In this document: in pieces, positions 38,748-50,870 of the stretch
Layout of the letters: every line of letters begins with the position of its first letter
Numbering within the stretch: position 1 is the stretch's first letter
Assembly (NCBI GenBank): GCA_004124385.1
Contig: SCKN01000002.1
Span: forward strand, 124,001-188,000
DNA from: Fidelibacterota bacterium
Lineage (GTDB): Bacteria > Fidelibacterota > Marinisomatia > Marinisomatales > TCS55
Length of the DNA stretch: 64,000 bases
Reading direction: 5' to 3'
Position numbers and translations under genes: made by a program
Notes under the pieces: generated by a model
Database searches by the model: none
Seen by the model: the letters and a program-made list of their open reading frames with translations, nothing else
Told to the model about the DNA's origin: nothing

Positions 38748-38814
38748 GGTCTCCGCCGCCTTCATCACCTACTGTTATCTAAATATTCAGTCAGGCTGCT
38801 AGGACGGCGAGTCC
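38748..38814 (-). promoter_or_regulatory. Candidate attenuator pairing region before ilvD
   Basis: In the minus-strand RNA, GGACTCGCCGTCC (38802-38814, the last leader codons) can pair with GGCGGCGGAGACC (38748-38760), giving about eleven pairs with one mismatch and one bulge. The second segment can alternatively fold locally with CCTCC just after it. No U-tract follows, so a classical intrinsic terminator is not evident; Rho or translation control is possible. Confidence 0.4.
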
Positions 38815-38946
38815 AATAAGCGCTAGAATAAGCAAATCAATAATTAACACATTCAGCCGTAAGGTATCTTTATCAATACCTAAAGCAATTACGCCAGTCC
38901 GGCTTCTTTTGTTTTGTTTTGCTGATAGTGTTTTTTTCATACTCAT
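38791..38946 (-). CDS. Putative branched-chain amino acid leader peptide of the ilv-leu operon (51 aa)
   Basis: An ATG at 38944-38946 opens a 51-codon frame ending in TGA at 38791-38793, 135 bases before ilvD. The N-terminal half is basic (MSMKKTLSAKQNKRSRTGVI). The C-terminal half (residues 29-51) is LRLNVLIIDLLILALIGLAV followed by LAA: 15 of 23 residues are Leu, Ile or Val. The placement before the Leu/Ile/Val operon and the matching composition argue for a ribosome-stalling leader. The ribosome-binding site is weak. A small single-span membrane protein is the main alternative. Confidence 0.6.
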   Translation of the reverse strand: MSMKKTLSAKQNKRSRTGVIALGIDKDTLRLNVLIIDLLILALIGLAVLAA

Positions 38947-39060: not shown

Positions 39061-40650
39061 TTATTCTTGATAACCAGATAATTCCCTAGCGGAAGGATCT
39101 AACACGTCTGTCCAGTTAGGCATCCAGAAATGTGGGATTAATTTTTCATTTTTACCAAAATAAGACTCAAATACTTTACGATAATAATAACTCTCTTTTA
39201 AAACCGGTGTACAATGAGTAATCTTTCCGCTTTCTTGTAGGAATTCACTATCACTAATTTTTTTATTAACAAATGATTGAATAATATGATGCCAGGATTT
39301 CTTTTTTGCACTGACACCATCAGAGAAAGCGCACTTCCTTCGCCACAATACTTCTTCCGGTAAAATATTTTGACCATCAAATGCTTTCCGTAATAAATAT
39401 TTTTCCAATCTATTGATACCATCAAATTGTTTTAATTCTGGAGGAATAGACAGATAATATTTCACGAAAGCTTTATCTAAAAAAGGCGTTCGGGCTTCCA
39501 GGCCGTTAGAACTGATACTCCGATCGGAGCGCAAGACATCAAAATAGTAAATTTCTTTTATGAGGCGTTCGCTCTCTATTTGTAAAGCTGACGACGAAGG
39601 CGCATTCTTTAAATAAATATATCCGCAACAGACTTCATCAGCGCCATCGCCATTAAAGATGACCTTGCAATCAGAATTTTCTGAAATGTATTTAGAAATG
39701 AGATAATTGCCCACACTGGCTCTGACGGTGGTTGTATCATACGATTCAATATTGTAAATCACAGTCTCAATTGCATCCAAAAACTCATTTTCAGGCACTT
39801 CAATCTGGTGGTGCTTTGTTTCCAAATGATCTGCAACAGTTTGGGCATATTCAAGATCAATGCTTCCCGGGAGTCCAATGGAAAATGTATTGAGTTTTGG
39901 TCCATCGTAATATTGATTCACCAAAGCGGAAATTAAACTTGAGTCCAATCCGCCGGATAAAAGACACCCAATTTCCCGTTCTGCCATAAGCCGTTTCTTA
40001 ACTGCATTTGTTAACAAGAAATGGATTTTATCACATATATCTTCTTCTGTTTTCTCCTGGATTTGAATTCCATTATATTGGAAATATGAATTAAACTGCT
40101 TTGGGTTTTCAGAATGCCACCAGTTCCCGGGAGGGAAGGGAGAAATTTCCTTGCAATATTTTATTAAAGGCTTTGCTTCTGAAGCTATCATGATTTCATT
40201 ACCATCACTGCCTATAAATCCAGGGCGAACACCCATGGGGTCCCTACCTGCAAAAAGTTGACCCGCCTTTTCATCCAGGATCACAAACATGAATACCCCA
40301 TCCAGTTCTTTGACTGTTTGTTCAATACCAAATTCTTTAAACATGAGTAATATTATTTCACAATCCGAACCTGTTACCAAATTTAAGCTATACTTTTCAG
40401 CCAGATCTTTATAATTATAAATTTCGCCATTACAGATCAAAGTGAGTGAATCATCATCGGGGTGCTTCATGGGTTGGTCGCCCATTTCTGTGGTGCCCAT
40501 AATTGCTAATCGATGGAACGCAAACAATACATCATCCCCAATCATTTCATGGTGTGTATTATCGGGGCCACGATACTCAATTGATTTTATATCGTCTTCA
40601 AGAGTCTCCCATGAATATTTTGTTCCTTTATAAAAATAGATACCGCACAT
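39061..40650 (-). CDS. asnB: Asparagine synthetase (glutamine-hydrolysing)
   Basis: The 529-residue enzyme makes asparagine from aspartate, ATP and glutamine. The N-terminal Ntn amidotransferase domain starts at the catalytic Cys2 (MCGIYFYKG), with EYRGPDN, FHRLAIM and CNGEIYNY. The synthetase domain has the PP-loop LLSGGLDSSLISAL and FNGDGADEVCCGY, plus LEARTPFLDKAF. AAGGAAG precedes the ATG by eight bases. An intrinsic terminator and an Asn-rich leader ORF lie immediately upstream. It ends about 115 bases before the ilv leader, with only an A/T hairpin as possible terminator. Confidence 0.93.
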   Translation of the reverse strand: MCGIYFYKGTKYSWETLEDDIKSIEYRGPDNTHHEMIGDDVLFAFHRLAIMGTTEMGDQPMKHPDDDSLTLICNGEIYNYKDLAEKYSLNLVTGSDCEIILLMFKEFGIEQTVKELDGVFMFVILDEKAGQLFAGRDPMGVRPGFIGSDGNEIMIASEAKPLIKYCKEISPFPPGNWWHSENPKQFNSYFQYNGIQIQEKTEEDICDKIHFLLTNAVKKRLMAEREIGCLLSGGLDSSLISALVNQYYDGPKLNTFSIGLPGSIDLEYAQTVADHLETKHHQIEVPENEFLDAIETVIYNIESYDTTTVRASVGNYLISKYISENSDCKVIFNGDGADEVCCGYIYLKNAPSSSALQIESERLIKEIYYFDVLRSDRSISSNGLEARTPFLDKAFVKYYLSIPPELKQFDGINRLEKYLLRKAFDGQNILPEEVLWRRKCAFSDGVSAKKKSWHHIIQSFVNKKISDSEFLQESGKITHCTPVLKESYYYRKVFESYFGKNEKLIPHFWMPNWTDVLDPSARELSGYQE

Positions 40651-40675: not shown

Positions 40676-40708
40676 AAAAAAAAACCCCCAACATATTATT
40701 TTGGGGGT
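40676..40708 (-). terminator. Attenuator terminator before asnB
   Basis: In the minus-strand RNA, ACCCCCAA and TTGGGGGT form an 8-bp stem with a 9-base loop, followed by nine U residues (40676-40684). It ends 25 bases before the asnB ATG. Because it lies inside the asnB leader region rather than after proC, it is likely an attenuator. The 5' arm C-tract can pair with GGGGG at 40746-40750 in the leader ORF. Confidence 0.8.
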
Positions 40709-40732
40709 CTGTTTTAAAGCTTTAGTTAGTGG

Positions 40733-40834
40733 CTATAAAGCTTCTCCCCCGCTCATATTATTATTATTAAACAAAGAGTTAAACTGATTCACTTTGTTGG
40801 TGGGCTTCCGCCAAAAGATATTTTGTAATTCCAT
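40733..40834 (-). CDS. Putative asparagine-sensing leader peptide of asnB (33 aa)
   Basis: An ATG at 40832-40834 opens a 33-codon frame ending TAG at 40733-40735. It contains eight Asn residues at positions 5, 13, 16, 19 and 23-26, the last four as consecutive AAT codons (LFNNNNMSGGEAL). GGG-GGA codons just after the Asn run give the GGGGG that can pair with the terminator's C-tract. The stop region overlaps a hairpin (AAGCTTTA ... TAAAGCTT). This fits ribosome-mediated attenuation of asnB by asparagine supply. No strong ribosome-binding site is seen. Confidence 0.7.
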   Translation of the reverse strand: MELQNIFWRKPTNKVNQFNSLFNNNNMSGGEAL

Positions 40835-40895
40835 GGTTAATCTTATGAATAAATCTAACTGAAATCAATACCCAACATCTACCTTTTACGTTTAT

Positions 40896-41717
40896 TTATG
40901 ATTCATTAATTATTTCATCAATTTTATCAGCTGACCTGACAATCGCTCTAATCATCGCTGAACTGAATCCCTGATGTTCCATTTCATTCAAACCGGAAAT
41001 GGTAATTCCTTTTGGGGTAGTTACTTTATCTATTTCCGATTCTGGATGTAACTCCGAATCAATAGTAAGTGATGCTGCACCGCGGGCTGTTTGAGCTGCC
41101 AGCAGTATCGCTTCATCTGCATGAAATCCGATTTCCGTCCCTCCTTGGGATGCTGCCCGTATTGATCGTAAAAAAAAAGCTAGACCTGATCCGCACAAAG
41201 CTGTGGCGGGAGCCATCAAGCTCTCTTTAACCATTAATGTCTTGCCCAATTGATCAAATACCTTTTTTACAATTTCCAATGATTCATAATCACTATCTAA
41301 TGCTGCGAGACACGTCATGGATTCACAAATTGCCACAGCTGTATTGGGCATAATCCTGACAATTGGAATTTGTTGACCAACTGTATTATGTATAGCATCT
41401 ATGGAAACACCCGTCATAGTGGAAATAATTATATGCTTATCAGAATTTATAACATCTTTAAAAGAATTCAATACTTGTTCAGCATTTTGTGGGCCGACGG
41501 ATATAATAATTAGTTCACTCTCTTGTACTGCAGATGAATTGTTATCAGTTACGCGAAATCCACTTTCTTCGAAAGAAGTTATTTCTGAAAGAGTCCTTCT
41601 AGTTAAGGTAATATCCTCTGGTAAAAATTTACCAGACTTCAATAATCCTTTCGCAATGGCTTGCCCAAGGTTTCCAGCCCCTATAATTGCAATTTTTTTC
41701 ATTTCTTCAGTGTCCAT
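40896..41717 (-). CDS. proC: Pyrroline-5-carboxylate reductase
   Basis: The 273-residue enzyme makes the last step of proline synthesis with NAD(P)H. The Rossmann motif is IAIIGAGNLGQAIAKGLLKS. Other motifs are IISTMTGVSIDAIH, IVRIMPNTAVAICESMTCLA and the C-terminal site LCGSGLAFFLRSIRAASQGG with TTPKGITISGLNEME. The start may be the ATG at 41717 or one five codons later. It diverges from thrA across 197 bases and is separated from asnB by the attenuator region. Confidence 0.92.
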   Translation of the reverse strand: MDTEEMKKIAIIGAGNLGQAIAKGLLKSGKFLPEDITLTRRTLSEITSFEESGFRVTDNNSSAVQESELIIISVGPQNAEQVLNSFKDVINSDKHIIISTMTGVSIDAIHNTVGQQIPIVRIMPNTAVAICESMTCLAALDSDYESLEIVKKVFDQLGKTLMVKESLMAPATALCGSGLAFFLRSIRAASQGGTEIGFHADEAILLAAQTARGAASLTIDSELHPESEIDKVTTPKGITISGLNEMEHQGFSSAMIRAIVRSADKIDEIINES

Positions 41718-49249: not shown

Positions 49250-49318
49250 ATGAATAACATGAATACAAAAATTTATTATAGCTGGTATTGGTTTTTTAGC
49301 CGCGAAGGGGTTTTGTAG
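49250..49318 (+). CDS. Putative aromatic amino acid leader peptide of the trp-phe-tyr operon (22 aa)
   Basis: A 22-codon frame from ATG at 49250 to TAG at 49316 contains the block YYSWYWFF (residues 9-16): two Trp, three Tyr and two Phe in eight residues. A second ATG at 49259 could also start it. The last codons GAA-GGG-GTT-TTG supply GGGGTTT (49307-49313), an exact complement of AAACCCC in the terminator's 5' arm. The operon downstream encodes enzymes for all three aromatic amino acids, matching the mixed composition. No clear ribosome-binding site is present. Confidence 0.72.
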   Translation: MNNMNTKIYYSWYWFFSREGVL

Positions 49319-49352
49319 TCCCAGGGAATACCTGTACATGCTGACTGCTCTT

Positions 49353-49381
49353 AAACCCCGAGATAATCGGGGTTTTTTTTT
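49353..49381 (+). terminator. Attenuator terminator before trpE
   Basis: AAACCCCGA and TCGGGGTTT form a perfect 9-bp stem with the five-base loop GATAA, followed by a run of T to 49381. It ends seven bases before the trpE ATG at 49389. The 5' arm is also complementary to the end of the leader ORF, the classic arrangement for attenuation. Confidence 0.85.
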
Positions 49382-49388
49382 GCTCAAA

Positions 49389-50870
49389 ATGGATAAAACA
49401 CAACTCACATTCGACGAATTTCAGGATCTTGCCAAGGGATGCGCAACCATACCTGTGTATAAACGCATCCTGGCAGATTTGCTTACACCGGTAGCGGCGT
49501 GGGTGCACCTTTCCAAAAAGGCGGAATATGCATTTTTACTGGAGTCTGTTGAAAAAGGGAATCAATATTCACGGTTTTCTTATGTGGGAATCAATCCACA
49601 GAAAATTCTTATGCATAAAGATGGACTATCCACTATCACCGAAAATGGGGAAACCAATAACGTAGATATGCCTTTTCTAGATATACTCCGAGAAATGCAA
49701 TCCCAATATAATATGGTGAAATTGCCGGGAATCCCTTCTTTCACAGGCGGGTTAGTTGGCTACCTTGGATATGAAACAATCGCCTGGGTGGAAGATATTC
49801 CCATTCATCATAGTTCTGTCTTGGATGTTCCTGATGCAATTTTTATGCTTTTTGAAGATATGATTGCATTTGACCATTTGAAGGGGTCGGCACTAGTCAT
49901 TTCCAATGTAAAGGTGAATCCTAATCAAGAGTTAAAGGAGCAGTTTGATAATGCTCACGCAAGAATTGATGTCATTGGTGAAATGCTTCACTCTGATGTG
50001 GATTATCAGACCCTGATCCGAGTGAAAAAAAGCCAAGTGTCTTCCAATTTTGATCAAGAATCCTTTGAATCTGCAGTCCTAAAAGCAAAAGAACACATAG
50101 TAGATGGAGATATCTTTCAGTTGGTATTGAGTCAGAGATTTGAACGCCAAACTTCCGTAGAACCCACGACTCTTTATCGTGCATTGCGAAATATCAATCC
50201 ATCTCCCTATATGTTTCATTTGAAAATAAAAGATTTTGATATTATTGGCGCATCTCCGGAGTTATTAGTCAAAGTAGAAGATGGTGTTGTCGAAATTCGT
50301 CCTATTGCAGGTACACGCCAACGGGGTAAAACGGAAGCAGAAGATCAAGCACTTGCACAAGATTTAATCAATGATGAAAAGGAATGCGCCGAGCATTTGA
50401 TGCTTTTGGATTTGGGGAGAAATGATGTAGGCCGTGTATCTGAATATGGTTCCGTAACTATTCCTGAAAATATGGTGATCGAAAATTATTCCCATGTGAT
50501 GCATATCGTTTCTGATGTGAAAGGAAAATTGGCGAAAAATAAAGATCCCTTTGATGCACTTATGAGCGGCTTTCCTGCAGGAACAGTTACGGGCGCACCT
50601 AAAATCAGAGCCATGGAAATAATTCATGAGCTTGAACCGAATCGCAGAGATATCTATTCTGGGGCTGTGGGATTCTTTGATTTTACAGGGAATGTGAATA
50701 CTTGCATAACGATTCGAACTATGATCATGAAAAATGGCACGGTACATTTTCAATCCGGCGCTGGCATTGTGCACGATTCTGATCCAACAAAAGAATTTGA
50801 GGAGACAGTGAATAAGGCAAAGGCCATCATGGCGGCTATTGATTTTGCAGAAAACGGGTTGGTTTCATGA
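49389..50870 (+). CDS. trpE: Anthranilate synthase component I
   Basis: The 493-residue enzyme converts chorismate to anthranilate with TrpG. The chorismate-binding domain has DGDIFQLVLSQRFE, IGASPELLVKVEDG, IRPIAGTRQRGKTEAED, LLDLGRNDVGRV and FPAGTVTGAPKIRAMEIIHE. I chose the ATG at 49389 (MDKTQLTFDEF). A longer frame from 49338 would translate through the terminator hairpin. It overlaps trpG by four bases. Confidence 0.95.
   Translation: MDKTQLTFDEFQDLAKGCATIPVYKRILADLLTPVAAWVHLSKKAEYAFLLESVEKGNQYSRFSYVGINPQKILMHKDGLSTITENGETNNVDMPFLDILREMQSQYNMVKLPGIPSFTGGLVGYLGYETIAWVEDIPIHHSSVLDVPDAIFMLFEDMIAFDHLKGSALVISNVKVNPNQELKEQFDNAHARIDVIGEMLHSDVDYQTLIRVKKSQVSSNFDQESFESAVLKAKEHIVDGDIFQLVLSQRFERQTSVEPTTLYRALRNINPSPYMFHLKIKDFDIIGASPELLVKVEDGVVEIRPIAGTRQRGKTEAEDQALAQDLINDEKECAEHLMLLDLGRNDVGRVSEYGSVTIPENMVIENYSHVMHIVSDVKGKLAKNKDPFDALMSGFPAGTVTGAPKIRAMEIIHELEPNRRDIYSGAVGFFDFTGNVNTCITIRTMIMKNGTVHFQSGAGIVHDSDPTKEFEETVNKAKAIMAAIDFAENGLVS

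Follow-up and report, generated by a model that had tools for sequence, protein, structure and literature searches.

A predicted asparagine-sensing leader-peptide attenuator in front of asnB in Candidatus Neomarinimicrobiota

The window, that is, the whole stretch of 64,000 nucleotides analysed here, carries on its minus strand proC and, downstream of it, asnB, the gene of a glutamine-hydrolysing asparagine synthase. The two genes are separated by a promoter-like pair, a short leader ORF and an intrinsic terminator, in this order (Table 1). The leader ORF with its AAT run, the GGGGG located six bases 3' of this run, and the terminator with its tract of nine U are present exactly to the base as originally predicted. 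The 8-bp hairpin at the leader stop (H2) is present as well; its 5' arm adjoins the TAG codon and the predicted fold carries H2 on through the stop. The main element absent from the original prediction is the long-range helix H0, which joins the leader start to the stop region and encloses both the Asn run and the G-run. The window copy of H0 is degenerate.

Table 1. Features of the asnB and trpE leader regions in the window.
Feature	Position	Strand	Content	Basis
proC	40896-41717	-	gene upstream of the leader
Promoter-like pair	40840-40868	-	-35 TTGATT (40868-40863), 17 nt, -10 TAAGAT (40845-40840)	sequence; constant spacing in relatives
Leader peptide ORF	40733-40834	-	MELQNIFWRKPTNKVNQFNSLFNNNNMSGGEAL; 33 codons, 8 Asn; stop TAG at 40735-40733	read from sequence; conservation
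H0, long-range helix	40730-40813	-	leader start UGGCGGAAGC (40813-40804) with stop region GCUUUAUAGCCA (40741-40730)	covariation in relatives
Regulatory Asn run, putative stall site	40757-40768	-	AAT x4	sequence; Asn kept in relatives
G-run (region 2), antiterminator 5' arm	40746-40750	-	GGGGG	sequence, relatives, folds
H2, stop-codon hairpin, nested within the antiterminator	40717-40743	-	AAGCTTTA (40743-40736) / TAAAGCTT (40724-40717)	sequence; covariation
C-run (region 3), terminator 5' arm and antiterminator 3' arm	40703-40707	-		sequence; covariation analysis
Intrinsic terminator	40676-40708	-	ACCCCCAA...TTGGGGGT, then nine U (T tract 40684-40676)	sequence; C5/G5 stem, covarying in relatives
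asnB, downstream gene	39061-40650	-	glutamine-hydrolysing asparagine synthase	NF006949 and TIGR01536 over curated NCBIfam cut-offs; PF00733, PF13537
Trp-codon leader	ORF 49250-49318, cassette 49250-49381	+	MNNMNTKIYYSWYWFFSREGVL	GGGG before stop, C4/G4 terminator with T run
trpE	49389-50870	+	gene directly after the Trp-codon cassette	over TIGR00564 cut-off

The asnB leader stands out in the window. Among 1075 short ORFs (15-60 aa, both strands), it is the only one with NNNN. A detector for a short ORF with a G-run before the stop and a C-rich terminator gives two matches in the 64 kb, the asnB leader and a Trp-codon leader in front of trpE. The latter repeats the order of the asnB leader, namely regulatory codons, G-run, stop and C-rich terminator, and differs from it in having Trp codons (WYW) instead of Asn and another gene downstream. 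The Trp-codon cassette precedes trpE in 27 of the 30 fetched loci of this trpE family.

The search for asnB homologues covered 121 relatives at first and was then extended to 245 genomes of the phylum (Candidatus Neomarinimicrobiota, SAR406); it gave 33 orthologous asnB loci with readable upstream DNA. The complete module, consisting of the Asn-run leader ORF, the G-run, the stop hairpin and the C/G-U terminator, is present in 22 of them, belonging to two families, and is missing from the other 11 (genera g8, g23, g33, family f16). On the asnB tree its presence and absence require 3 changes, compared to 9.3 in shuffles. The leader peptides of the relatives, such as MRYTIALNNNNNNNANLFGVGAPV, MGYTINNNNNNNNNANNNGVGALV and MELQNILWRKQSNNLDQFNTLFNNNNNNISGGKAL, have 7-12 Asn codons in 22-35 residues, and in all leaders a G-run of 3-5 G is found at a near-constant distance from the stop. 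By sequence, the leaders form two groups: the 8 leaders of group A come from the window and close relatives of it, and group B takes in the others (13 aligned). In group B, Asn is kept at each codon of the run in 11-13 of the aligned sequences. Across the leaders, AAT and AAC exchange freely, and alignment gaps within the ORF come in multiples of three. The synonymous changes and the gaps in threes indicate that the leader ORF is under coding constraint and is translated, with Asn as the conserved feature. Conservation of the poly-Asn ORF among relatives, proposed earlier as a check of the attenuator idea, is thus borne out.

Alignment of the leaders also reveals compensatory changes in four helices: H0, H1 (arms flanking the Asn run), H2 and the terminator (T). 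In group B, 91.9% of the cells of H0, H1 and T taken together are paired and 11 pairs are changed on both sides; the covariation score is 0.361 versus 0.190 in shuffles (0/500). On four of the five measures, none of the 500 shuffles reaches the values of the three helices, and every slid version falls far short of them. Double changes occur in 3 of 7 pairs of H0 and in 4 of 5 pairs of H2 in this group, and the terminator helix has 5 doubly changed pairs in relatives. H0 exists in two unrelated sequence versions, GUUACAC:GUGUAAC in group B and CUUAUGG:CCAUAAG in group A.

A register-free test compared cognate arms with arms swapped between species; it ignores relatedness, so that its p-values are optimistic. 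With this reservation, in group B each of the four helices has p=0.0002 and the G-run:C-run pairing p=0.0006; H2 reaches 0.0002 also over both groups. In the 8 leaders of group A, under the same reservation, T gives p=0.022 and H0 a borderline p=0.058; in H1, H2 and the antiterminator the arms vary too little for the test to reach significance. No pair of the G-run:C-run helix is changed on both sides, because both arms are nearly invariant; the covariation here is one-sided.

We then folded the RNA of 21 leaders in the state in which transcription has reached the terminator loop, placing a ribosome on each codon, including each Asn codon. The computed probability of the antiterminator is 0.57-1.0 when the ribosome stalls on the first run codons; it falls at the codon or codons adjoining the G-run in most leaders and is 0 with the ribosome at the stop codon. 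With the ribosome stalled and the terminator 3' arm not yet made, the best fold of all 21 sequences is a G-run:C-run stem enclosing the stop hairpin. Hence, the stop hairpin is part of the antiterminator and joins the two runs. The proposals that GGGGG can pair with CCCCC, and that it is freed by a stall on the first Asn codons and hidden by a ribosome at the stop, are in this way reproduced by the calculation in 21 of 21 sequences.

The full-length leader at equilibrium always prefers the terminator, even with a stalled ribosome, and antitermination must therefore be kinetic, in line with the model of attenuation as a race (PMC1183508). Without a ribosome, before the terminator 3' arm is made, most leaders still favor the antiterminator; H0 and H1 clearly block it at equilibrium only in L010, L013 and L021. 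The putative blocking role of H0 and H1 is thus based on covariation and not on energy.

In the folding calculation any stall in the run exposes the G-run, as would be expected if the attenuator sensed a general slowing of translation, for example by ribosome-targeting drugs, and the Asn run were just a slow or unstructured stretch. We consider this very unlikely. In both leader types the regulatory codons fit the product of the gene that follows, Asn in the case of asnB and Trp, together with Tyr/Phe, in that of trpE. The Asn codons are moreover concentrated at positions at which a stall takes effect.

Alternatively, the hairpin could simply terminate transcripts of proC, or of any other gene located upstream, with the Asn ORF as a by-product of AT-rich DNA. 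The DNA is indeed AT-rich, and in the window as well as in L002, L005 and L006 asnB follows proC in the same orientation. In other loci, however, a gene for a PEP-utilising enzyme or a divergent gene takes the place of proC, and the ORF, the G-run, the stop hairpin and the terminator are kept there as well. The module therefore belongs to asnB, and the assignment of the terminator to proC transcripts only, named in the original prediction as the outcome that would speak against it, is refuted by these other gene neighbourhoods. Nor does the by-product idea agree with the rarity of NNNN among the short ORFs of the window and with the synonymous changes of the Asn codons. We give this explanation hardly any credence.

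The module also appears to have its own start. In 8 of 8 group-A leaders the -35 element, a spacer of 17-18 nt, the -10 element, 5 nt and the ATG follow each other with the same spacing, which again separates the terminator from proC transcripts. In the window the promoter-like pair has 8 of 12 consensus bases, under the threshold of a consensus promoter scan, and was missed by it; the case for a promoter is therefore built on the constant spacing in relatives. Group B, which is more distant, matches the promoter less well and with less regularity. As the -10 element ends 5 nt before the leader ATG, the transcript is expected to start at the AUG or within a few bases of it, so that the leader mRNA of group A would be leaderless or nearly so.

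Attenuator peptides may have roles in trans, as described for peTrpL of Sinorhizobium (PMC7298713), and the asnB leader peptide might similarly be a small functional protein with the RNA structure being secondary. This is highly improbable, given that beyond the Asn run and the Gly/Val of the G-run region the sequences of the two groups are unlike (MELQNIFWRKP... vs MRYTIAL...), the length varies from 22 to 35 residues and the Pfam search gives no match.

Asparagine genes of Firmicutes are controlled by an Asn-specific T-box, an RNA that recognises uncharged tRNA by direct binding, with no translated ORF being required. It shares with the asnB leader the coupling of asparagine genes to the charging of tRNA-Asn. 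A T-box, another metabolite- or tRNA-binding RNA, or a control of asnB translation, in each case with no translated leader, is nevertheless a scarcely tenable explanation here: Rfam gives no T-box (at gathering or at E<=5) or riboswitch match, an intrinsic terminator precedes asnB, and the ORF evolves under coding constraint.

Hence, we suggest that asnB is controlled by its leader through ribosome-mediated transcription attenuation, with charged tRNA-Asn being what the leader senses; judged on the comparative and folding evidence, the probability of this reading is roughly 0.9. Transcription would start almost at the leader AUG, with the ribosome trailing RNA polymerase across the Asn codons.

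When asparagine is scarce, the ribosome would stall on the Asn run and cover the upstream arms, leaving the G-run free. The G-run and the C-run would then pair around the stop hairpin to form the antiterminator, the C5/G5-U9 terminator would come too late, and asnB would be transcribed.

When asparagine is plentiful, the ribosome would proceed to the stop codon and cover the G-run together with the 5' arm of the stop hairpin, resulting in termination before asnB. H0 probably serves as an extra protector, shielding the G-run after release of the ribosome or when the leader is not translated.

The genome encodes AsnRS. A search for GatB gives no match in it but detects the protein in 12 of 14 control genomes; with the genome being 97% complete, the absence of GatB is likely but not certain. 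With AsnRS present and GatB undetected, charging of tRNA-Asn should depend on free asparagine, which would thus be the signal read by the leader.

Textbooks describe leader-peptide attenuation for Trp, His, Phe, Thr, Ile/Val and Leu. Like the trp, his, phe, thr, ilv and leu attenuators (Rfam Trp_leader RF00513, His_leader RF00514, Phe_leader RF01859), the asnB leader combines a short ORF, in which codons of the amino acid whose synthesis is encoded downstream form a run, with a mutually exclusive antiterminator and intrinsic terminator and a helix 5' of the antiterminator (model: PMC1183508). It has an Asn-enriched ORF, an intrinsic terminator, an antiterminator sharing the terminator 5' arm and, by computation, dependence on the ribosome position. 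Unlike the classical attenuators, it has Asn codons, precedes asnB, occurs in another phylum and lies on an mRNA that looks leaderless or nearly leaderless, and its antiterminator is a short G-run/C-run stem enclosing a second hairpin at the stop codon, an arrangement that appears typical of this phylum.

No Rfam family reaches its threshold for the asnB leader in gathering and relaxed scans. Among the best sub-threshold matches of the window leader are Phe_leader, with 23.4 of 55 bits, and His_leader, with 21.4 of 49; Trp_leader is not listed among its matches. Leader attenuators outside the classical set have been predicted computationally, as here, in the Bacteroid-trp motif (RF01692) and in uORFC-8-2, which has tandem Cys codons and a terminator before cysS (PMC8632094; PMC2864571); these differ from the asnB leader in amino acid, gene and clades, and do not match it in the Rfam scans. 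As far as the searched sources go, the kind of mechanism is known and its specificity for Asn is unreported: a non-exhaustive search of Rfam and the open-licence literature gave no earlier report of an asparagine leader, which agrees with the initial remark that none is commonly described.

We note several further candidate leaders in the phylum. A covariance model built from group B gives strong matches in the 245 genomes only before asnB, and weaker ones before lysW and trpE; one weak match, in L069, was discarded as an ordinary terminator after an unrelated gene. Upstream of lysW-lysX in L064 (468-632) there is a Lys/Arg-rich leader of the same build, MSKKNNRPLARNKNIARRAKMLSVGVTV, and in L067 and L104 leaders of this build without an evident regulatory codon stand upstream of lysW. 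Poly-Cys leaders with a C-rich terminator precede a TusA-family gene (CCCCCCC; L070, about 1217-1320) and a sulfite/nitrite reductase-like gene, named by eye (CCSCCCC; L088, about 852-945). In another family of the phylum, ilvD is preceded by the Ile/Leu-rich leader MIDMKTPRHILDIIIWIVLIILLIDRREGVI, which has GGGG and a C4/G4 terminator (L092, 888-1010). A His version of the cassette was sought at hisG loci, with one unconvincing match and otherwise none.

Ahead of ilvD in the window itself there is a 51-aa ORF ending in VLIIDLLILALIGLAVLAA (38791-38946, minus strand), with no clear C-rich terminator seen. It is matched in 11 of 121 genomes, its own included, with 39-57% identity in the others. 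We regard it as a candidate Ile/Leu/Val leader or small membrane protein.

With the trpE leader and the candidate Cys and Ile leaders sharing its build, the Asn leader is one example of an attenuation design that recurs in the group. We lean slightly towards a single attenuator design shared across Neomarinimicrobiota, made up of regulatory codons, a G-run translated immediately ahead of the stop, a stop hairpin and a C-rich terminator and adapted to Asn (asnB), Trp (trpE), Lys/Arg (lysW), Ile/Leu (ilvD) and poly-Cys (sulfur genes). Its asparagine version would be the first Asn-specific leader known, and the antiterminator built from G-run and stop hairpin would differ in design from the textbook 2:3 stem.

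If true, the proposed mechanism adds asparagine to the amino acids under leader-peptide attenuation and places this control in a deep-branching, almost uncultured marine phylum. The ratio of the short leader RNA to asnB mRNA would then also be a read-out of asparagine, and hence nitrogen, sufficiency in SAR406 metatranscriptomes. Other attenuators in the phylum could in addition be searched for with the asnB leader as a template.

Last but not least, two observations concern the history and variety of the asnB loci. The asnB genes and leaders of family f7 genus g28 (L002, L003, L005, L027) mix on the asnB tree with those of family f1 genus g1 (L001, L004, L006, L023), a hint that the proC-leader-asnB block may have been exchanged horizontally. 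Genus g23 loci that have no Asn leader (L018, L020, L022) share an AT-rich block upstream of asnB, AAATTAAAAATTAATTTTTTATACGCAAATAAATAATATTTTAAAG, which may be another control element.
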